A stretch of DNA of 53,367 bases from Gemmatimonadota bacterium (lineage in GTDB: Bacteria > Gemmatimonadota > Gemmatimonadetes > Gemmatimonadales > GWC2-71-9). This document shows positions 40,190 to 52,204 of the stretch, piece after piece. The notes beneath the pieces were generated by a model that did no database searches, was not told the DNA's origin, and saw nothing but the letters and a program-made list of their open reading frames with translations. The translations under genes were made by a program, and so were the position numbers. Position 1 is the stretch's first letter. The number at the start of each line of letters is the position of its first letter. The DNA is taken from positions 1 to 53,367 of the forward strand of contig QHUU01000066.1 in assembly GCA_003222155.1 (NCBI GenBank), written 5' to 3'.

Positions 40190-40260
40190 GCCACCCTGAA
40201 GGGTGGCCCGACACGGCACTACCCTTCAGGGCAGAGTTGCACCGGGCCCAGGCTTCAGCC
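40190..40260. repeat. Cluster of small palindromes in an intergenic gap
   Basis: Three palindromes in a row: GCCACCCT-GA-AGGGTGGC (40190-40207), CCCT-TC-AGGG (40222-40231) and GGCT-TC-AGCC (40251-40260). They occupy the 186-bp divergent gap between the DbpA-like gene and the aminotransferase gene, where promoters would be expected. They look like a dispersed-repeat type rather than operators, but no second copy is in the window. Confidence 0.55.
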
Positions 40261-40313
40261 AGGGAATGGAATCGCGGTTGCCCACCTTGCCTCGCGGGGC
40301 TATCCTCCCGCGC

Positions 40314-41507
40314 ATGACCCCGGCCTCCGGCCTGTCGCCCAACCTGCAACACCTCGAGACGTCCGCGACCATCGCGATCTCGCAGGAGGCGAAGCGCCGC
40401 AAGGCGGCGGGTGAGGACGTGATCGATCTGGGGGCGGGAGAGCCCGATTTCCCCACGCCGTCCATCCCGGCGGACGCCGGGGTCCGCGCCATCCGGGAAG
40501 GGAAGACCCACTACCCCGCGAACGAAGGGATCCTCGAGCTGCGGGCCGCCGGGGCGAAGCACCTGTCGCTCCTCTCGGGCGGCCGCGCGGTCAACGCCGA
40601 CCACATCGTGGTGTCCAACGGGTCGAAGCAGTCGCTCTTCAACGTGTGCTTTGCGCTGTTCGGGCCCGGCGACGTGGTCGCGATCCCGGCGCCGGCGTGG
40701 GTGTCGTATCCGCAGATCGTGTACCTGTGCCGCGCCCGGCCGGTGCTCGTCCCGGGCGATCCCGAATGGAGCCTGAAGGTGAGCGTGCGGGACCTGGATC
40801 GCGTGGTGCCCGGCGCCAAAGGTCTGGTGCTGTGTTCGCCCTGCAATCCCACCGGGGCGGTGTACACCCACGCCGAGATCAAGGCGATCGCGCAGTGGGC
40901 GCGCGACCGCAAGGTGTGGGTGGTCGCCGACGAGATCTATCGCCGGATCCATTACGGGACCGGTCCGGCGCCGTCGTTCCTCGATCTGCCCGACGAGCTG
41001 CTCGAGCGCGTGGTGGTGATTTACGGCGTCAGCAAGGCGTACGCGATGACCGGGTGGCGGATCGGGCTCGCGCTCGCGCCCGGCCCCGTCGCAAAGGCGA
41101 TGGCGGCGCTGCAGTCGCACACCACGACGGGCGCGAACCACCCCGCGCAGGTGGCCGCCGCGGCCGCGCTGGGAGACGACCGGGTGGAGCAGGATGTCGG
41201 CCGGATGGTGGCCGAATTCCGCAGGCGGCGGGACCTCGTCGTCATGCGCTTCCGGCAGGATCTGCCGGGCGTCGAGTTCGTCGAGCCGCTGGGCGCCTTC
41301 TACTTCTTCTTCCGGGTGGACTCGTTCGGGGGCATCGGCGGGACCGAATTCTGCACGCGGCTCATCACTACGACGGGTGTGGCGCTGGTGCCCGGGGCAG
41401 CGTTCGGGGACGACCGCTACGTACGACTGTCGTATGCGGCCGCCACGGATAGCCTCCAGAAGGCGCTCGACCGCATCGTCGGGTTCGCGAAGAAACTGAG
41501 CGACTGA
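40314..41507 (+). CDS. Pyridoxal-phosphate aminotransferase, aspartate aminotransferase type
   Basis: 397 residues, class I fold. VIDLGAGEPDFPTP and KTHYPANEGILELR at the N-terminus, LCSPCNPTGAVYTHAEI, VVADEIYRRI and the Schiff-base lysine in YGVSKAYAMTGWRIG are typical of the AspC/AspB (Igamma) group. The C-terminal Arg for the substrate carboxylate is in DRYVRLSYA. It probably interconverts aspartate or an aromatic/prephenate-type amino acid with its 2-oxoacid. ATG at 40314, with a weak ribosome-binding site. It is followed by a CCCCGGGC hairpin. Confidence 0.92.
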   Translation: MTPASGLSPNLQHLETSATIAISQEAKRRKAAGEDVIDLGAGEPDFPTPSIPADAGVRAIREGKTHYPANEGILELRAAGAKHLSLLSGGRAVNADHIVVSNGSKQSLFNVCFALFGPGDVVAIPAPAWVSYPQIVYLCRARPVLVPGDPEWSLKVSVRDLDRVVPGAKGLVLCSPCNPTGAVYTHAEIKAIAQWARDRKVWVVADEIYRRIHYGTGPAPSFLDLPDELLERVVVIYGVSKAYAMTGWRIGLALAPGPVAKAMAALQSHTTTGANHPAQVAAAAALGDDRVEQDVGRMVAEFRRRRDLVVMRFRQDLPGVEFVEPLGAFYFFFRVDSFGGIGGTEFCTRLITTTGVALVPGAAFGDDRYVRLSYAAATDSLQKALDRIVGFAKKLSD

Positions 41508-43440: not shown

Positions 43441-43512
43441 ATCGCGGTGTAACGGCCCTCCGTGCGCTAGAATGGTTCCAGCTTCCCCGCCGCGCCGCGT
43501 ACCGTGGAGCGC

Positions 43513-43866
43513 ATGTCGCGGTACGAACGGCTTCACGCCTGGCGGGAATGCCACGAGCTCGCCTTGGCGGTTTACCGGGTCACGAAGCAGTTCCCCAATG
43601 ACGAGCGTTACGGGCTGACCTCGCAACTCCGGCGCGCCGCGTTCTCTGCCGCGGTCAATATCGTCGAGGGATCTGCACGGCGCAGCACCAAAGAATTCCG
43701 CCGGTTCCTCGATATTTCCCTCTCATCGCTGAGCGAGGTCGGATATGCGTTGCGGTTCGCTTGGGAAGCGGGCCTGCTGACCGACGACGATTGGTCCGCC
43801 CTCAACGATCGCCAGAGCCGCGCCCGCTTTCTCACGTGGCAACTGTACCGAGCCCTAGGTCGGTGA
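43513..43866 (+). CDS. Four-helix-bundle protein (S23/IVS family)
   Basis: 117 residues from the ATG at 43513 (GGAG nearby; a GTG nine bases earlier is less likely). It matches the family of four-helix-bundle proteins first seen in 23S rRNA intervening sequences: YERLHAWRECHELALAVYRVT, FPNDERYGLTSQLRRAAFSAAVNIVEGSAR, then EFRRFLDISLSSLSEVGYALRFA. Related small proteins include Avd of diversity-generating retroelements, which binds nucleic acid. No reverse transcriptase is present. Flanking inverted arrays suggest it belongs to a discrete element. Confidence 0.9.
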   Translation: MSRYERLHAWRECHELALAVYRVTKQFPNDERYGLTSQLRRAAFSAAVNIVEGSARRSTKEFRRFLDISLSSLSEVGYALRFAWEAGLLTDDDWSALNDRQSRARFLTWQLYRALGR

Positions 43867-43925: not shown

Positions 43926-44660
43926 ATGTCCGACCAACTCCCCCGCCTCGGCGGCCTCCCCGAGGCCGAGAAGTACGAGCGTCTGGTCGAGCGCGTACCG
44001 GGGCTGTGGTGGAGCGACGCCGGACCGTTCGCGGGACTGCACGAGTTGAACGTGGTTCGCGTGGAGTACTTCCGCGCCGTGTTCAACGGGTTCGGCGGCA
44101 AGCGGGTGCTCGACGTGGGGTGTGGCGGCGGCATCCTGGCCGAAGCCCTCGCGACCGAAGGCGCGCGAGTGACCGGCATCGATCCGTCGGAGCGCTCCCT
44201 CACAGCGGCGCGCGACCATGCGCAGCGCGCCGGCTTGGCGATCGAATACCGGCCGGGCACGGCCGAAAACCTCAAAGCGGCAGGGCTCGAGGGGTCGTAC
44301 GACCTCGTGTTCGCGGTGGACGTGCTCGAGCACGTGGACGATCTCGATCGCACCCTCGCCGGGGTGGCGGCCGTCCTCGCGCCGGGCGGTGGGCTCGGGT
44401 TCCTCACCCATAACCGCACCATCGCCGGCTTCCTGCAGGTCGTGTGGCACGAGGAATACGTGCAGCACACGATGCCGGAAGGCTTCCACGACTTCCAGCG
44501 CTTCATCACGCCCGCCGAGCTGACGGAAAAGCTCGCGCGCAACGACATGGTCGTACAGGAAATGAAAGGGATCGCGCCGGCCGGTGACGGCACCGGCCGC
44601 CGCATCCTGACCGACGATCTGAGCATCACGTATCTCGGGTGGGCGCTCCGGACTCGATGA
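43926..44660 (+). CDS. UbiG-like SAM-dependent O-methyltransferase
   Basis: 244 residues. Motif I is RVLDVGCGGGILAEALA, motif post-I is VTGIDPSE, and motif II is YDLVFAVDVLEHVDD. VVWHEEYVQHTMPEGFHDFQRFITPAEL fits the UbiG branch, which methylates hydroxyls of ubiquinone intermediates. If the organism uses only menaquinone, another phenolic substrate is likely. The TGA overlaps the ATG of the NurA-like gene, which is unexpected for a metabolic enzyme next to a DNA-repair operon. Confidence 0.82.
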   Translation: MSDQLPRLGGLPEAEKYERLVERVPGLWWSDAGPFAGLHELNVVRVEYFRAVFNGFGGKRVLDVGCGGGILAEALATEGARVTGIDPSERSLTAARDHAQRAGLAIEYRPGTAENLKAAGLEGSYDLVFAVDVLEHVDDLDRTLAGVAAVLAPGGGLGFLTHNRTIAGFLQVVWHEEYVQHTMPEGFHDFQRFITPAELTEKLARNDMVVQEMKGIAPAGDGTGRRILTDDLSITYLGWALRTR

Positions 44661-45673
44661 CCCTCCGCGGCTCGTGGGTCGAGGCCGTCGTCGCTGCGGG
44701 CGCCGTGCCGGCCTCCCACGTTCCCGACGCGAGCCTCGGCCGCGGCGACGTCGAGGAGTTCACCGGAGCCGATCCGGTCGAGGCGGGCGAGCTCCGCGTG
44801 GAGCCGCTGAGCGATGCGCGGCCCCTCGCGCCCGCGGCCGTGTGCTTTCTCGACGGCATCGAGCAGTGGCGAGTGGTGGGATACGGCGGGATCACGCCGA
44901 TCGTGCGGGCGCACGTTGCCGCCGCGGTCCGCCAGCGCGGGCCGGACCGCCGCCTGCGCACGGTCGCCGAAGCGACCGAAGACGTCGCGATCACGCGGCT
45001 GGACCGGCTTCCCGCGGGCGTGCGGCGCGCGCTCGAGGCGGCCGGCGTGCGGGTGCTCGAGTTCCCGGCCGAGGAGGCGGGCCAGCCCGCACGCGCTCTG
45101 GCGGCCGCGCGAGTCGAGGTGCAGAAGACTCGGACCGCCCTCGAGCGGCGCCTGGGGGAGGCGGGGCTGCGCGCTTTGGCCGCCGACGAGTGGCTCGTGG
45201 TGGACGGCGTACTGTCCGATTCGGCCGCGCTCTCCGAGCACACGCGCGCGCTCGGCGTCGTGAAGAGTCATGGTGCGCAGTATTTCGAGGGTGCGGAGCT
45301 GGAGCGGGCGCTCACGTTGCCGGACGGCCATCGCACGAGCGTGTTTCGGCCGCGAGCCCGGGGCGCCCGGCGCGACATCTACTCGTGGTACGTGCGGCTG
45401 TGGCCGTGGGAGGGAAACGACCTGTTGTACGGCCTGCTGCGCCTCGAGGCCCGTGCCCATCCGGAGACCATCGCGCTCGCTTCGCCCATCGCCGCCTGGA
45501 TGCGCGCGGAGCGCGCGCCCGTGGCCACCCCCGACCGGCGCTGGGATCGGTTACTTTATCCTATCCATGACGTGGAGACGTACCTGAGGGCACGCGCCCC
45601 GTCCGACCTCACCTCGCATCCCGCGTCTCGCATCCCGAACCCCGGCTCTCGGTTTCCGAGGACCGCCTCGTGA
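44657..45673 (+). CDS. nurA: NurA-like nuclease domain protein
   Basis: 338 residues. The layout fits NurA: an N-terminal acidic strand (AVCFLDGIEQWRVVGYGG), a long helical middle (ARVEVQKTRTALERRLGEAG), a second acidic strand (EWLVVDGVLSDSAALSEH) followed by GVVKSHGAQYF, and a C-terminal RRDIYSWYVRLWPWEGNDLLYGLLRLEARAHP with the closing YPIHDVETYLRA. NurA nucleases act with the HerA translocase, encoded next with a GTGA overlap. The family call is by eye. The last 20 residues (SHPASRIPNPGSRFPRTAS) come from a degenerate heptamer array. Confidence 0.7.
   Translation: MTLRGSWVEAVVAAGAVPASHVPDASLGRGDVEEFTGADPVEAGELRVEPLSDARPLAPAAVCFLDGIEQWRVVGYGGITPIVRAHVAAAVRQRGPDRRLRTVAEATEDVAITRLDRLPAGVRRALEAAGVRVLEFPAEEAGQPARALAAARVEVQKTRTALERRLGEAGLRALAADEWLVVDGVLSDSAALSEHTRALGVVKSHGAQYFEGAELERALTLPDGHRTSVFRPRARGARRDIYSWYVRLWPWEGNDLLYGLLRLEARAHPETIALASPIAAWMRAERAPVATPDRRWDRLLYPIHDVETYLRARAPSDLTSHPASRIPNPGSRFPRTAS
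45616..45657. repeat. Degenerate heptamer array at the nurA-herA junction
   Basis: Six consecutive 7-mers with G first and C last (GCATCCC, GCGTCTC, GCATCCC, GAACCCC, GGCTCTC, GGTTTCC). It encodes the NurA-like C-terminal tail and ends 13 bp before the HerA start. Opposite in orientation to the array at 45825-45852. Confidence 0.75.
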
Positions 45674-47646
45674 TCGAGCGGCGCGATCCGCTCCCCTCGC
45701 CCCCCTTGTCTTCCCCGATCGGCCGCGTCGTCGCCACCGAGCAGAAGCCGGCGACCCCGCACCAGTTTCACTTCTGGACCGCGAACGAGACCAGCATCGG
45801 GATCGGGGCGATTGTCCGAGTAGAGGGACTCGGGGCCGGGGACTCGGGGCGCGTCGTGTACGGAGTCGTGACCGATGGGTTCGCGTACTCCGACCTCGCC
45901 ACGCCGCTGCACGACGTGGTGGGTGCCCAGGGCGACCCGGCCAAGGCGGCCGCGAGTCCGACGGTCCGTCAGGAAATCCGGCTCTGGACCGCGGCCGTGC
46001 TGCGCCAGACCCCGGAGGAGCCGCTGCAACCGGTGCCGCTCGGGCAGGTGCATGTCGCGACCGACGTCGACGTGGCCCAGGCCCTCCGCATGGACGCGTA
46101 TCTTGGCGGGGCGCAGCCGACGGCAATCCCGGTGGGTCTCTACACCTCGGGCGGGCTCGAAGCGCCCGTATACGTCGACGCGGACTTCCTGCTCGGCCCG
46201 GAAGCGGCGCACTTGAATATCTCGGGCGTCTCGGGGCTCGCCACCAAGACGAGCGCGGTGGAGTTCCTGCTGTCGTCCATTTTCCAGCATTTCCCGCCGC
46301 ACAAGGGTCGCGTGGCCGCGGTGTGCTTCAACGTGAAAGGCCCCGACCTGTGCTTCCTCGATCGGCCCGGAACGCTCGACGACGAAGACCGCCGGCGCTA
46401 CCAGCGGCTGGGCGTCGCGCCCGAGCCGTTCCAACAGGTGCGCTACTTTGCGCCCTTCAAGGCCGACGGCGTGAACCTCAACACGCTGCGCACCCATCCC
46501 GACCTGGTCGGCGAGGTCGAGCCGCTGGTGTGGGGGCTGCGCGAGGTGCTCGACTACGCCGAGGTGCTGCTCAACCGGGACGACATCGACGCCAAGGCCG
46601 ACGCCTTCATCGACTTCCTCGCCGACCGGGTGGTGGACAAGGAGTTCGAGGACGGGTTCGGCGGCGCGCATCGCGTGGTCACGTTCGCCGATCTGGAGCG
46701 TCTGTTCCGGTCGATCTTCGACGGCCTCGAGCTCGCGAGCAGGGGTGGCGACAGCTGGCGCACGCACCACATCGCGACCATGCGCAAGGTACGCAACCGT
46801 CTGGCGAACATCTCGACACGTTGCAAAGGCCTCGTCACCGACGACGGCCCGTCGAATGATCTGCCGTGGGGGCGGTTCGCCGACCGCACGGTGTACGTCG
46901 TCGACGTAGCGAACGTGGATCCGCTGGGCCAGGACCTCGTGTTCGCCCGCGTGGTGTCGCAGCTGCGCGAGCGCCTGGAGCGTCGCGACCTGGGCGTCGA
47001 AGCCGTGGTCGTGTTCGTGGACGAATTGAACAAGTACGCGCCCGCCGACGGGCCCGAGACGTACGTCAAGAAGATGCTGCTCGATATCTCGGAGCGGGGG
47101 CGCTACCTCGGGTTGGTGCTGTTCGGCGCCGAGCAATTCCGGTCGCAGGTGCATCGGCGGGTGGTCGGGAACGCGGGGACGGCGGTATTCGGCCGCATGG
47201 ACGCGGACGAGCTGGCCACGCCGGGGTACCAGGTGCTCTCGCCCGCCACCAAGATCAAGCTGGCCACGCTGCCCATCGGCGAGCTGATGGTGCGCCATCC
47301 CCACTTCACACAGCCCATCTTCGTGCGCTTTCCGCGGCCCGCCGTGCTGCGCGGCCGTGACGGGGTGGAGCGCTACCCGCCCGCCGCGGACCTGCCGTTC
47401 GAGGACGCCGTGGCGCGCCAGCTCCTGAAGCTCGACCGTCGCGTGCGACCCAATCAGGTGAAGGACCTCATCGCGGACCGGCGGGAGGAGGACGTGCGTC
47501 GCGCCCTCGCGCACACCCGCCAGACGCGACCGCAGGACGCGCTGGCCCACTTCAAGAAGCAGCTCGGCGGCCGCGTGGCGGCCGTGCCCGCGGCCGCACG
47601 CGAGAGCGTTCCGCCGCTGAACGCGATTTCCGACGAGCCGTACTGA
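45670..47646 (+). CDS. herA: HerA-like ATPase / DNA translocase
   Basis: 658 residues. A beta-barrel HAS-type domain occupies about the first 170 residues. The ATPase core has an unusual P-loop, ISGVSGLATKTSAVEFLL, with one residue more than the standard GxxGxGK(S/T), and Walker B VVVFVDELNKYAP. Downstream SERGRYLGLVLFGAEQFRSQVHRRVVGNAGT matches the sensor/arginine-finger region of HerA/FtsK proteins. As a hexamer it would pump DNA for the NurA nuclease. Encoded directly upstream of sbcD and sbcC. Some DUF87/HerA ATPases serve in phage defence; this context favours repair. Confidence 0.87.
   Translation: MIERRDPLPSPPLSSPIGRVVATEQKPATPHQFHFWTANETSIGIGAIVRVEGLGAGDSGRVVYGVVTDGFAYSDLATPLHDVVGAQGDPAKAAASPTVRQEIRLWTAAVLRQTPEEPLQPVPLGQVHVATDVDVAQALRMDAYLGGAQPTAIPVGLYTSGGLEAPVYVDADFLLGPEAAHLNISGVSGLATKTSAVEFLLSSIFQHFPPHKGRVAAVCFNVKGPDLCFLDRPGTLDDEDRRRYQRLGVAPEPFQQVRYFAPFKADGVNLNTLRTHPDLVGEVEPLVWGLREVLDYAEVLLNRDDIDAKADAFIDFLADRVVDKEFEDGFGGAHRVVTFADLERLFRSIFDGLELASRGGDSWRTHHIATMRKVRNRLANISTRCKGLVTDDGPSNDLPWGRFADRTVYVVDVANVDPLGQDLVFARVVSQLRERLERRDLGVEAVVVFVDELNKYAPADGPETYVKKMLLDISERGRYLGLVLFGAEQFRSQVHRRVVGNAGTAVFGRMDADELATPGYQVLSPATKIKLATLPIGELMVRHPHFTQPIFVRFPRPAVLRGRDGVERYPPAADLPFEDAVARQLLKLDRRVRPNQVKDLIADRREEDVRRALAHTRQTRPQDALAHFKKQLGGRVAAVPAAARESVPPLNAISDEPY
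45825..45852. repeat. Heptamer array inside the herA 5' region
   Basis: Four 7-mers, GGGACTC, GGGGCCG, GGGACTC and GGGGCGC, encoding EGLGAGDSGRV in the HAS-domain loop (residues 52-61). Inverted relative to the array at 45616-45657, 167 bp away. Confidence 0.7.
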
Positions 47647-47653
47647 CCGAACG

Positions 47654-48826
47654 GTGAAACTCGCCCATCTCGCAGATCTCCACCTCGGGTTCCGCCAGTA
47701 CGACCGGCAGACGCCACGGGGCGGCAATCAGCGCGAGACGGACGTGGCCGACGCGTGCCGCCGTGCGGTCGACGACCTGCTCGAGCAGCGCCCGGACTTG
47801 ATCCTGGTCGCCGGAGACGTCTTCCACTCCGTGCGTCCGACCAACCCGGCCATCCTGTTCCTTTTTCAACAGCTGCACCGGCTGCGGACCGGTCTCCCCG
47901 ACACCCCGGTCGTCATGATCGCCGGCCAGCACGACACGCCGCGCTCGGTCGAGACCGGCACGATCCTGCGACTGTACGAGGCGCTGGGCGTGGAAGTCGT
48001 CGTCGATCAGGCTCGACGCATCACCTTTTCCAAGCTCGACTGCTCCGTGCTCGCCGTACCCCACCAGGCGCTGATGCAGGCCGAGCGACCCGCCATGCGG
48101 CCACAGCGCGGCACGACGCTCAACGTGCTGCTGGTGCACGGTCAGCTGCCGGGGGTGGGGGAGCGCCGCGGAACCATGGAGTACGGCGGTGCGCCCCTCC
48201 AGCTCGAGGATCTCGCGCCGGCGCAGTGGGACTACGTGGCCATGGGCCACTACCACGTCGCGCACCAGGTCGAACCGAACGCCTGGTACGCGGGCAGCAT
48301 CGAGTACGTCGCCCCGAACCCGTGGGGGCAGATGGATGACGAAGCGGAGTACGGCGTGCAGGGCAAAGGCTACCTGCTCGCGCATCTCCCCGGGGCGCGG
48401 GTGGAGGTTCGCCGGGTGGCCCTGGCACGCCGCCACATCGACCTTCCCGCGATCGACGGGAAGGGCCTCACGCCGAGAGACCTCGATGAGCGCATCGCCG
48501 CCCAGGTGGCGGCCGCCAAGCCGGCGATCGACGAGCAGATCGTGCGGCAGCTCGTCTTCGACGTATCGCGCGCCACCGCACGGGATCTCGATCACGCCGC
48601 GATCCGGGGCTACAAGGCTCGCGCGCTGCACTATCAGCTCGACCTGCGGCGGCCCGAGGCGCCCCGCGACGAGGCCGCAGGGCCGCTCGCCCGCCGGCAG
48701 ACGCTGCCCGAGACGGTGCGGACCTTTCTCGAGCATCGGCCGCTCGACGCGGATCTCGACCGGGCGGAGTTCGTGCGGCTGGGCGTGGACTACGTGGCGC
48801 GCGTCGGCGGGGAGGCCGAGCCCTGA
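47654..48826 (+). CDS. sbcD: SbcD/Mre11-type DNA repair exonuclease
   Basis: 390 residues, GTG start 7 bp after herA. Phosphodiesterase motifs are ADLHLG (D8, H10), VAGDVFH (D55, H58), LLVHGQLPG and MGHYH. Motif III, normally GNHD, reads GQHD at 91-94, so the conserved metal-binding Asn is Gln. With SbcC it forms the Mre11-Rad50 complex that processes DNA ends and hairpins. The C-terminal part (RRVALARRHIDLPAIDG onward) is the capping region. Confidence 0.92.
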   Translation: MKLAHLADLHLGFRQYDRQTPRGGNQRETDVADACRRAVDDLLEQRPDLILVAGDVFHSVRPTNPAILFLFQQLHRLRTGLPDTPVVMIAGQHDTPRSVETGTILRLYEALGVEVVVDQARRITFSKLDCSVLAVPHQALMQAERPAMRPQRGTTLNVLLVHGQLPGVGERRGTMEYGGAPLQLEDLAPAQWDYVAMGHYHVAHQVEPNAWYAGSIEYVAPNPWGQMDDEAEYGVQGKGYLLAHLPGARVEVRRVALARRHIDLPAIDGKGLTPRDLDERIAAQVAAAKPAIDEQIVRQLVFDVSRATARDLDHAAIRGYKARALHYQLDLRRPEAPRDEAAGPLARRQTLPETVRTFLEHRPLDADLDRAEFVRLGVDYVARVGGEAEP

Positions 48827-51255
48827 TGCAGCTGCACCGGCTCCGCCTCGTGAACTTTCGGCAGCATGCCGACACCGAGCTCGAATTCGGCCCCGGGATC
48901 ACCGGCATCTTCGGACCCAACGGATCGGGGAAGACGACGCTGCTCGAAGCCATTGCCTGGGCGATCTACGGCGCGCAGGCGGTCCGGGGAGACAAGGACT
49001 CGATCCGCCGCCTGGGCGCGAAGGGTCGCACGGGGGTGGAGGTGGAGCTCGAGTTCCGGGTGGGCACCCACGAGTACCAGGTGAAGCGCGGTCTCTCCAC
49101 CGCGGCGCTGCTGCAGGATGGGCAGCTCGTGGCGAATTCCCTCAAGGCGGTCACTGAGAAGCTGGAGCGTACGCTCGGGATGACGCACCAGGAGTTCTTC
49201 AACACGTACTTCACCGGCCAGAAGGAGCTGGCGGTGATGGCGGCGCTCGGCAAGACGGAGCGGGCGGCATTCCTGTCGCGGGTGCTCGGCTACGAGCGCC
49301 TGCGCGACGCGCAGGAACGAGTGCGCGAGGTTCGGAACGCTGTCGCCGCGGAGGTGCGGGGCCTCGAATCGGGCCTGCCGGACGCCGCGGCCCTGGCGGC
49401 GGCGCGCAAGAGCGCCGAAGAGGGACTCGCGCGGGCCCAGGCTGCGGCGCAGGGGGCGGATGCCGCCCGCCGGGTCGCGGAGGAGGGGCTGGGCCGCGAG
49501 GAGCCGCGCTGGAACGCGTGGGTAACGCGCCGCGAGCGCACGCTCTCGCTCGACGGCGAGCGACGCATGGCGGAGCAGGGCGTGGTCAGCGCGCGGCAGG
49601 AGTTCCAGCGGCTCGACCGCGAGCTCGCCGACGCACTGGCCGCCCGCGAGCAGCTGCGTCGCCTCGATGCCGAGCTCGCCCCCGTCGCGCGGCTGAAGCA
49701 GGAGGTGGCCGAGCTCGAGCGGCTGCAGCGAGCGGCGGCGGCCCGGCAGGCCGACGAGGCGCAGCTGGCGGAGGTGGGGCGCGCCGCGCGGGCGCTGGAG
49801 CGCCGCCTTGCCGAGCTGCGGGACGTCGCGGGCGAGCTGGAGCGAGCGGACGCGGCGGCGCGGCAGCTCGCCGAGCGGCTGCAAGCGGCGGAGCGCGCCG
49901 CGGAGGCCGAGCGGACGGCGTGGGTGCAGGACCGCCAGTACGCCGAAACCAAGCGCACCGAGCTGCTCAAGCTGTACGAAGAGGTGAAGGAGCAGCGCGA
50001 TCAGATCGTCGAGCTCGGGCCCGAGGGGACGTGTCCGACCTGCAAGCGCCCGCTCGGGGCCGAGTATGCCGCGGTGCTCGCGCTGCTCGACTCGCAGCTC
50101 GAGGTGATCACGGGCGACGGCAAGTACTTCCGGCAGCGGCTGGAGCAGCTGGCCGAGCGGCCCGCCAAGCTGGTGGAGGCCGAGGCCGCGCGCGACGGGG
50201 TGCTGGAGGAGAGCCGTCGTGCCAGCGCGCGGGCGGGCGAGCTGCGGGCGCAGGTGGAGGAGGGAGAGCGGGCGCGTGCCCAGTTGACCGTGGCACGGGG
50301 CCGGGCGGCGCTGCTCGAGCGCCAGCTCGCAGCGCGCGCGGCGGGCTACGACGCTGCCCGGCATGACGCGGTGCGGGCCGAGCTCGCCAAGCTCGAGCCG
50401 ATCGCGCTGGAGGCGGCGGCGCTGGAGGAGCGGGCGCGACGCGCCGAGAGCCTGGTGCGGGACGCCGAGCGGGCGGAGCAGCAGCTGTCGGTCGGCGAGC
50501 GCCGGGTGCGGGAGCTGACCGACGCGGTGCGCGCCGAGGGGTTCTCCGACCAGGGATATCGGCAGGCGAAGGATCGCTATGACCGCGCGGTGGGTGCGCT
50601 GCGCGAGGCCGAGCTCGCCGTGGTCGAAGCGCGGGGGGCGCTGACGCGGGCGGAGGACGACGTGCGGGAAGCGAAGCGGCGCGAGGGTGAGCGCGCCGAG
50701 CGCGAGCGCCACATCGTCGAGCTGAAGGCCCGCCAGCGCCTCCACAACGAGCTGGACCGCGCGTTCTCGGATCTGAGGGCCGAATTGAACGCCCAGATGC
50801 GGCCCGAGATCGCCGAGCTCGCCTCCGGCTTCCTCGCCGACCTGACCGACGGGCGCTATGATGAGCTCGAGTTGACCGAGGACTACACCGTCACCATCCT
50901 CGAGGGGGGAGTGCCCAAGCCGGTAATCTCGGGCGGGGAAGAGGATATTGCCAACCTCGTCCTGCGGCTCGCGATCTCGCAGATGATCGCCGAACGGGCG
51001 GGGCAGCCGCTCTCGCTGCTCGTGCTGGACGAGATCTTCGGGTCGCTCGACGAGGCCCGTCGCCAGCACGTGGTCGGGCTGCTGCGCCGGTTGGCGGATC
51101 GCTTCCCGCAGGTCATCTTGATCACGCACATCGAGCAGGTACGTGAGGGCCTGGATCGCGTGATTCGTGTGGACTTCGACCCCGCCCGCGGGACGAGTGT
51201 GGTGCGGGACGACACCGCAACGCTGGGAGCCGCCGATGCGGGCGTGGCTGCCTGA
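48826..51255 (+). CDS. sbcC: SbcC/Rad50-type SMC ATPase
   Basis: 809 residues. The N-terminal Walker A is FGPNGSGKTTLLEAI (30-37). A long coiled coil follows with the zinc-hook CPTC at 403-406 almost exactly mid-protein. The C-terminal head has signature VISGGEEDIANLVLRLA and Walker B LLVLDEIFGSLD, then the H-loop ILITHIEQV. The coil is short beside E. coli SbcC (about 1050 residues), closer to archaeal Rad50. The start shares a base with the sbcD stop (TGATG). It bridges and unwinds DNA ends with SbcD. Confidence 0.95.
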   Translation: MQLHRLRLVNFRQHADTELEFGPGITGIFGPNGSGKTTLLEAIAWAIYGAQAVRGDKDSIRRLGAKGRTGVEVELEFRVGTHEYQVKRGLSTAALLQDGQLVANSLKAVTEKLERTLGMTHQEFFNTYFTGQKELAVMAALGKTERAAFLSRVLGYERLRDAQERVREVRNAVAAEVRGLESGLPDAAALAAARKSAEEGLARAQAAAQGADAARRVAEEGLGREEPRWNAWVTRRERTLSLDGERRMAEQGVVSARQEFQRLDRELADALAAREQLRRLDAELAPVARLKQEVAELERLQRAAAARQADEAQLAEVGRAARALERRLAELRDVAGELERADAAARQLAERLQAAERAAEAERTAWVQDRQYAETKRTELLKLYEEVKEQRDQIVELGPEGTCPTCKRPLGAEYAAVLALLDSQLEVITGDGKYFRQRLEQLAERPAKLVEAEAARDGVLEESRRASARAGELRAQVEEGERARAQLTVARGRAALLERQLAARAAGYDAARHDAVRAELAKLEPIALEAAALEERARRAESLVRDAERAEQQLSVGERRVRELTDAVRAEGFSDQGYRQAKDRYDRAVGALREAELAVVEARGALTRAEDDVREAKRREGERAERERHIVELKARQRLHNELDRAFSDLRAELNAQMRPEIAELASGFLADLTDGRYDELELTEDYTVTILEGGVPKPVISGGEEDIANLVLRLAISQMIAERAGQPLSLLVLDEIFGSLDEARRQHVVGLLRRLADRFPQVILITHIEQVREGLDRVIRVDFDPARGTSVVRDDTATLGAADAGVAA

Positions 51256-52204
51256 GCGCCAGGTCTACGGGCCGGAGCCCGCCGGGGAGCGGGACACCGA
51301 CGCGCTGAACCGGGTGTTCGCGGACGCGTTCACCGACCGTTACCGCCGCGACGGCCTCGTCGGCGTGCGCGTGCCCCATCTGAATCCGCAGGTGTGGCGG
51401 TACGCGCTGCTCGACGCGGGCGCGGGCGCCATGTTGTGGCGCGACGAGGCGGGGCACGTGGTGGCCTTCAATATCGCGCACCGCTCGGGCACGGAGGGAT
51501 GGATGGGCCCGCTCGCGGTGCGCCCCGACCGCCAGGGGGCGGGGGTCGGCAAGGCGATCGTCCGGGCGGCGGTGGACTGGCTCATCGAGCAGGGCGTCGC
51601 GACGCTGGGGTTGGAGACCATGCCGCGCACCGTCGAGAATATCGGCTTTTACGCCCGGCTCGGGTTCGCGCCGGGTCACCTCACGGTCACGCTGACGAAC
51701 GACATCGCGACCCGCGGCCACGCTGCTCCGGCGCTCCTGTCGCAGCGCAAGGGCGACGCGGGCGGCGCGGCGCTCGCCGCCGCCCGTCGCCTCGTCGGCA
51801 CCCTTTCGCCGGGCTACGACTTCACGCGCGAGATCACGCTCACGGCGGAGCTGGGGCTCGGCGACACGTCGCTGGTGGACGGCGACGACGGGCTGGCGGC
51901 GGTCGTGCTGTGGCACTCGACTCCCCTCGCGGAAGGCCGCCCCAAGGACGAAGTGCGGGTGCTCAAGCTCGCGGCGCGCGACGACCGCGCTTTCGACGCG
52001 TGCATCGCGGCGACCGAGGCCGCAGCCGCGCGCGCGGGCATCCGGCGCGTCGCCGTACGCTGCCAGACGCGCTTCGAAGACACCTTCCGCCGGCTGGTCG
52101 CCCGCGGCTATCGCGTCCGCTGGACCGACCTCCGGATGACCTACGAGGGCTACGGCGAGCCGCCCCCGCGGCGCGGCGTGCTGTTCTCGAATTGGGAGAT
52201 CTAG
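51236..52204 (+). CDS. Double-GNAT acetyltransferase
   Basis: 322 residues; the ATG lies 20 bp inside the end of sbcC with GGGAG upstream. The first GNAT domain has the acetyl-CoA loop in WMGPLAVRPDRQGAGVGKAIVRAAVDWL and the following ENIGFYARLGF. A second, weaker GNAT-like half (ITLTAELGLGDTSLVDGDDGLAAVVLW to RLVARGYRVRWTDLRM) lacks an obvious P-loop and may be structural or bind substrate. Acceptor unknown. Its stop codon shares its G with the first base of the adjoining repeat array. Confidence 0.82.
   Translation: MRAWLPERQVYGPEPAGERDTDALNRVFADAFTDRYRRDGLVGVRVPHLNPQVWRYALLDAGAGAMLWRDEAGHVVAFNIAHRSGTEGWMGPLAVRPDRQGAGVGKAIVRAAVDWLIEQGVATLGLETMPRTVENIGFYARLGFAPGHLTVTLTNDIATRGHAAPALLSQRKGDAGGAALAAARRLVGTLSPGYDFTREITLTAELGLGDTSLVDGDDGLAAVVLWHSTPLAEGRPKDEVRVLKLAARDDRAFDACIAATEAAAARAGIRRVAVRCQTRFEDTFRRLVARGYRVRWTDLRMTYEGYGEPPPRRGVLFSNWEI

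Follow-up and report, generated by a model that had tools for sequence, protein, structure and literature searches.

A syntenic nurA-herA-mre11-rad50 operon with nested gene losses in the bacterial order Gemmatimonadales

Introduction

The set of four clustered genes nurA, herA, mre11 and rad50 is best known from archaea. Here we describe such a set in the Gemmatimonadales, a large order of mesophilic soil and water bacteria, starting from a 53,367-nucleotide stretch of a Gemmatimonadota bacterium (assembly GCA_003222155.1, contig QHUU01000066.1), hereafter called the window. Its genome is a metagenome-assembled genome (MAG) of the Gemmatimonadales, and the named genomes closest to it are likewise Gemmatimonadetes/Gemmatimonadales MAGs. 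In bacteria, NurA-HerA is already known from Deinococcus and Thermus, and the full set from Oceanithermus profundus, for which the same order nurA-hepA(herA)-sbcD-sbcC was described in 2017, in a paper that likened it to the break-repair set of archaea (PMC5448004). A search of the open literature on HerA/NurA in Gemmatimonad* found nothing relevant.

The division of end processing between HerA-NurA and Mre11-Rad50 is unsettled: 3' tails are produced in D. radiodurans, whereas both strands are cut in T. kodakarensis. The Gemmatimonadales constitute a natural experiment, in that AddAB is absent from most genomes and that the whole set, a version without NurA and a version without HerA and NurA are found at one syntenic locus; whether HerA feeds NurA or Mre11 can therefore be tested directly in this order.

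Results

Gene order, spread and nested losses

The four genes that the first-pass annotation had placed at positions 44657-51255 were all present there, contiguous and on the same strand (Table 1). The nurA and herA genes overlap by 4 nt, seven bases separate the herA stop from the mre11 start, and stop/start overlaps occur at two of the operon's junctions, which makes co-transcription of nurA-herA-mre11-rad50 likely, judging from the sequence. The order parallels that of the archaeal cluster, as had been pointed out in that annotation, and a gene-order survey found the four genes colinear in 53 of the 56 Gemmatimonadales loci with enough flanking sequence (the remaining three lacked nurA only), indicating that the arrangement is not a product of chance.

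Among 101 Gemmatimonadales genomes, Mre11 was detected in 100, HerA in 88 and NurA in 81; in the single genome without Mre11, herA is cut at the contig end. The absences were nested: all the genomes without HerA (n = 13) also lacked NurA, seven carried HerA without NurA, and none carried NurA without HerA (Fisher p = 9e-12, with kinship ignored). The herA and mre11 matches lay 18-184 bases apart in six of the seven HerA-only genomes, and at the HerA-less loci the aminotransferase, mre11, rad50 and GNAT genes were still in order at the same place. At the NurA-less loci with upstream sequence available, no hidden NurA was found before herA, also with the HMMER filters off, the upstream neighbour being usually the aminotransferase gene. 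Parsimony on the Mre11 tree required at least 12 changes for NurA and at least six for HerA. Our reading of this pattern is that NurA needs HerA, and that HerA stays with Mre11-Rad50 also where NurA is missing. A position of HerA as the link between NurA and Mre11-Rad50 agrees with the co-precipitation results in S. acidocaldarius, where HerA, but not NurA, co-precipitates directly with Rad50-Mre11 (PMC2288612).

Complete operons were also found in Armatimonadota (loci L134, L193-L196 and L198). In the HerA and Rad50 trees the Armatimonadota and Gemmatimonadota sequences were separate and the Gemmatimonadota families were followed, the Mre11 tree being less well resolved. The operon is native to Gemmatimonadales. 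A recent or Gemmatimonadota-specific transfer from archaea, one way of accounting for the archaeal appearance noticed in the first-pass annotation, finds no support in an operon that is spread over the order, has trees following bacterial families and contains HerA and NurA proteins closest to bacterial forms.

NurA and HerA

The window NurA went undetected in Pfam, NCBIfam, PHROGs and single-sequence Protein Data Bank (PDB) searches. The Pfam profile PF09376, proposed as a check, missed the protein and matched one of 32 relatives (E = 5.9e-4), whereas a broader profile of bacterial NurAs that included the window protein matched D. radiodurans NurA (DrNurA) end to end (E = 7e-28) and T. maritima TM1739 (E = 1.1e-10). 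The predicted structure (mean predicted local distance difference test, pLDDT, 87.2) aligned with DrNurA over 269 residues with Z 20.1, with TM1739 at 18.9 and with S. solfataricus NurA at 14.6. The protein is thus a NurA family member by profile and model, and its homology to the Pfam NurA model is remote rather than absent. In the profile alignment D66, K203 and R295 fall on DrNurA D53, K201 and R309, which are needed for activity (PMC9960219); for all three, the residue index in the solved chain equals the paper numbering plus 20. With a NurA fold found and the acidic nuclease residues D66, E163 and D183 kept, the identification held on the very points named as able to overturn it.

Of 123 aligned sequences, 116 have D at position 66, five have N and two have G. 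D66N occurs in five locus sequences (including L010, L032, L078 and L103), and D66G in one genome represented by two overlapping locus copies (L033/L011); the same loci carry Mre11 N92E or N92D, both nuclease sites being altered together. NurA was the fastest-evolving of the four proteins, with a ratio of nonsynonymous to synonymous substitution rates (dN/dS) of 0.19-0.37.

The window HerA matched D. radiodurans HerA (DrHerA, 7f6d) with E = 4.1e-44 by phmmer and E = 1.5e-132 by profile, while the profile recovered no archaeal HerA at E<1. Its model has a HAS barrel and a RecA-like ATPase fold (Z 33.7 to DrHerA 7wrw, 25.9 to SsoHerA), and the Walker A K193/T194, Walker B D451/E452 and R476/R478 of the arginine finger region were invariant across 16 HerAs. 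By sequence and model, HerA and NurA are Deinococcus-like bacterial forms, nearest to those of D. radiodurans and Thermotoga. HerA homologs start near residue 15 of the window protein, whose GTG start overlaps nurA. The profile match to DrHerA ends at position 563 of 647, leaving a conserved C-terminal extension without DrHerA counterpart, predicted to form helices at 562-632 (pLDDT ~85-92) and without a match in Pfam; it could be a docking part for Mre11-Rad50. The long HerA also occurs in Armatimonadota (~20 of 101 genomes) and in a small number of Cyanobacteriota.

Mre11 and its second metal site

The window Mre11 matched PF00149, the NCBIfam Mre11/SbcD models and P. furiosus Mre11 (1ii7, E = 1.9e-14), and is assigned to the family by homology, with no claim of canonical nuclease activity. 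The P. furiosus sites D8, H10, D49, H85, H173, H206 and H208 are kept and N84 is replaced by Q92, so that the motif reads AGQHD against the P. furiosus GNHD and departs from the canonical, complete two-metal active site. We take N84 and H206 of P. furiosus to be ligands of the second manganese.

Of 100 distinct Gemmatimonadales Mre11s surveyed, 20 belong to the window's subclade (64% identity or more) and 80 do not; position 92 (N84) or 199 (H206) was altered in 16 of the former and in two of the latter. The active site was intact in all the Mre11s from NurA-less genomes (19/19). The replacements were diverse (Q, E, D, H or T at 92; G, D or E at 199). On the Mre11 tree, parsimony counted seven changes at position 92 and four at 199, compared with none at D8, H10, D55, H93, H162 and H201 and one at D94. 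Against a same-genus genome, dN/dS was 0.07-0.19 for the operon, indicating purifying selection, and 0.097 for mre11, which is therefore not decaying as a gene. Metal binding is still conceivable for the substitutes D, E, H and possibly Q, whereas G and T would be incapable of it; because some replacements could still bind metal, a lost activity of the altered Mre11s is put forward as a hypothesis.

Rad50 and the two bacterial flavours

The window Rad50 matched NF003034 (199 bits) and P. furiosus Rad50 3qku (E = 1e-30), with Walker A at residue 30, a CPTC hook at 403-406, the signature SGGEE at 702 and Walker B at 731. The short coil and mid-protein hook that had been taken as archaeal-like are real in this 809-residue protein, although in the searches made here the archaeal type was separated from SbcC by the profile scores and not by the hook. 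Among NCBIfam models the window protein scored 199 bits with archaeal Rad50 against 99.7 with SbcC; Rad50s of the same flavour scored 199-250 against 79-142, as was also the case in L037, L193 and L198, and the order was reversed in L046, L050 and the plasmid loci. These scores classify the type of Rad50 and are no proof of descent; by them, Mre11-Rad50 would be the only archaeal-looking pair of the operon.

The second flavour, found in other Gemmatimonadota families and on plasmids of cyanobacteria, Chloroflexota and Streptomyces, has an SbcC-type Rad50 (TIGR00618 best, 243-285 bits) and a HerA that is ~25-35% identical to that of the window flavour and lacks the C-terminal extension. Archaeal Rad50/Mre11 matches among plasmids came from Halobacterium and Salinibaculum and covered only ~20% of the protein. 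An ImmA/IrrE metallopeptidase gene adjoins the SbcC-type HerA cassettes on Streptomyces and Chloroflexota plasmids (L069, L071), recalling the PprI/IrrE damage response of Deinococcus. NurA and HerA, but not Mre11-Rad50, are encoded in the record of a temperate-type phage, Marinitoga camini virus 1 (L070). NurA-HerA with no adjoining mre11-rad50 was also seen at L045 (G006) and L199-L203: nurA and herA are ~3 kb apart in Gemmatimonadota family f4, and nurA-herA only is found at several Armatimonadota loci.

AddAB-type nucleases

PDDEXK_1 (PF12705) had no match in the window's genome, whereas 12 of 14 control genomes were positive in the same search; AddAB, AdnAB and RecB are thus undetectable in it, an absence that had been named beforehand as support for a primary repair role. 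RecJ is present. Strong PDDEXK_1 matches (E<1e-20) were found in 10 of 91 sampled Gemmatimonadales genomes, in contrast to 54 of 59 sampled elsewhere in the phylum. Within the order, a mutual exclusion of AddAB and HerA was looked for and no relation was found, HerA being missing in 2/15 AddAB-positive and 11/86 AddAB-negative genomes. It is plausible that the operon is the main end-processing system here beside RecJ, and not a one-for-one AddAB substitute.

Flanking genes

A UbiG-like methyltransferase gene upstream overlaps nurA by four bases and a GNAT acetyltransferase gene overlaps the 3' end of rad50, which places the four-gene set within a longer co-directional run. The GNAT gene adjoins rad50 in most Gemmatimonadales loci read (L031-L044, L217-L230), including loci that lost nurA-herA, and was not found at the six Armatimonadota loci read. 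At the loci from which nurA, alone or with herA, has been lost, the aminotransferase gene stands upstream of herA or mre11. A 120-residue open reading frame immediately before the methyltransferase gene (window positions 43504-43866) resembles by eye a stand-alone S23/IVP-like four-helix-bundle protein. In 34 of 56 loci herA and mre11 are separated by 300 bases or more, and a gene of ~250-320 residues with a signal-peptide or lipobox-like start often lies in between (L031, L032, L033, L038, L039, L041, L042, L074, L078, L102). A 285-residue gene in this position was a candidate fifth component that we did not retain, given its signal-peptide or lipobox-like start and the lack of such a gene in the window.

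Table 1. Features of the locus in the window.
Feature	Positions	Strand	Remarks
nurA	44657..45673	+	ATG 44657, stop 45671-45673; 338 aa; RNase H-like nuclease; catalytic D66, E163, D183, K203, R295
herA	45670..47646	+	GTG 45670, stop 47644-47646; 658 aa; HAS-barrel and RecA-like translocase
mre11/sbcD	47654..48826	+	GTG 47654, stop ends 48826; 390 aa; phosphoesterase with changed second metal site
rad50/sbcC	48826..51255	+	ATG 48826, stop ends 51255; 809 aa; ABC ATPase, CPTC zinc hook
GNAT-family acetyltransferase gene	51239..52204	+	321 aa from approximate start; Acetyltransf_1 E=1.9e-12 (Pfam)
Aspartate-aminotransferase-like gene	40203..41507	+	Conserved marker upstream of the locus; outside the proposed mechanism
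Codon of NurA D66 (= DrNurA D53)	44852..44854	+	From alignments
Codon of Mre11 Q92 (AGQHD, not AGNHD)	47927..47929	+	Aligned to P. furiosus N84
HerA C-terminal extension	47347..47643	+	Residues ~560-658; predicted helical; no DrHerA counterpart

Discussion

We consider the locus to be, with a probability of roughly 60%, a chromosomal, vertically kept DNA-end-processing operon in which Mre11-Rad50 is the sensor and loader, HerA the pump and NurA the nuclease. From the protein identities, catalytic residues, gene order, distribution and nested losses described above we infer complex formation, resection polarity and a division of labour as follows. Mre11-Rad50 would clamp and sense double-strand ends, and HerA, held next to it, would pump duplex DNA; NurA, docked as a dimer on the hexameric HerA, would cut the DNA fed to it and provide RecA with 3' tails. 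The main processive nuclease of the window's subclade would probably be NurA, since the second metal site of Mre11 is altered and the catalytic residues of NurA are intact, while in the relatives that lost NurA an intact Mre11 would stay with HerA. The NurA-HerA of D. radiodurans leaves a 3' tail through translocation-coupled cutting, the 5' strand being resected (PMC9960219).

Several observations weigh against this interpretation. In T. kodakarensis, cutting by HerA-NurA affects both strands and no overhang results (PMC12977600), so the production of 3' tails is not assured. Deletion of nurA/herA in Deinococcus and Thermus has modest effects, and 13 of the 101 Gemmatimonadales genomes live without HerA-NurA, only two of these having a strong AddAB-type match, which indicates that the pair is not indispensable. 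The joint NurA D66N/G and Mre11 N92E/D changes in one group are not predicted by a simple division of labour.

More tentatively, and in our estimate with the odds rather against it, the two nucleases may be alternatives between which lineages switch. Where NurA serves HerA, as in the window's subclade, the second metal site of Mre11 would be free to decay and Mre11-Rad50 would load HerA as an end sensor that is altered or no longer degradative; in the lineages without NurA, HerA would work directly with an intact Mre11, and the HerA extension could be the docking part. The repeated Mre11 changes are confined to one metal site, and together with the losses across the order such active-site changes suggest how two nucleases and a DNA motor share work.

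The same proteins might instead serve mainly to destroy foreign or broken linear duplex by double-strand cutting, in an antiviral or clean-up role that leaves no 3' tails. The authors of the T. kodakarensis study, in which both strands were cut, suggest an antiviral function (PMC12977600); TdpAB, with solved HerA- and NurA-like subunits, matches our HerA model with Z 20.5 and our NurA model with Z 13.6, and SbcC-type nurA-herA-sbcD-sbcC cassettes reside on plasmids of cyanobacteria, Chloroflexota and Streptomyces. The locus is, however, fixed and syntenic, with conserved flanks, in 88 of the 101 genomes of the order, unlike sporadic, mobile defence islands, and PADLOC returned no system match for NurA or Mre11 and weak matches only for HerA, so we hold this explanation to be unlikely. 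Slightly more doubtful is a functional core made of HerA and Mre11-Rad50, with Mre11 as the nuclease and NurA as a dispensable accessory that is being lost. It would account for the repeated changes in NurA presence (at least 12) while HerA stays beside Mre11 in several lineages, for the intact site of every NurA-less Mre11 and for the fast evolution of NurA, but it sits poorly with the window itself, where Mre11 has Q at the N84 position and NurA is intact, and with the retention of NurA in 81 of 101 genomes.

Acquisition of the operon from archaea, followed by its retention as an archaeal-type machine, appears very improbable: gene content and order are as in archaea, and archaeal models give the best scores for Rad50 and Mre11, yet HerA and NurA fall with their bacterial counterparts, the HerA profile matching DrHerA at 1.5e-132 without recovering any archaeal HerA at E<1, and Armatimonadota and Gemmatimonadota fall in separate, family-structured clades. 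A one-for-one replacement of AddAB, to which the scarcity of strong PDDEXK_1 matches in the order relative to the rest of the phylum might point, is hardly credible given the lack of exclusion within the order and the existence of other families in which AddAB coexists with an SbcC-type HerA cassette.

Compared with the described systems, the end-processing operon proposed here has its closest solved NurA and HerA in D. radiodurans (7f6d, 7wrw), with matching catalytic residues (D53/K201/R309; K175, D487/E488); there, nurA-herA was described as a two-gene operon (PMC9960219), whereas the window HerA has ~90 extra C-terminal residues. In the archaeal operon of Sulfolobus and Thermococcus the same four families are clustered, and HerA binds Mre11-Rad50 in S. 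acidocaldarius (PMC2288612), although archaeal HerA and NurA are only remotely similar to those of the window (14-17% and 12-16% identical by structure alignment). The anti-phage complexes TdpAB, HerA-SIR2 and HerA-DUF4297 likewise join a HerA-family translocase to a partner enzyme, TdpAB also having a NurA-like subunit by fold, but they are defence systems, in contrast to a syntenic operon paired with mre11-rad50. The plasmid SbcC-type cassettes (AP018315, NZ_CP128402, NZ_CP134205) and those of other Gemmatimonadota families cluster the same four functions, with a HerA lacking the extension, an SbcC-type Rad50 and a varying order (nurA is last in the Streptomyces plasmid). Oceanithermus profundus is bacterial like the window and has the SbcD and SbcC genes downstream of its NurA-HerA pair, but it belongs to another phylum, and its SbcDC is described as having been recruited downstream of HepA in one genus, as opposed to the order-wide spread found here; going by the published description, the window is further set apart by its longer HerA and by a fourth gene of Rad50 type instead of SbcC type (PMC5448004). 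New in Gemmatimonadales are the spread of the set through the order, the Rad50-type flavour, which Armatimonadota share, the C-terminal extension of HerA, the nested pattern of loss and the confined changes in Mre11.

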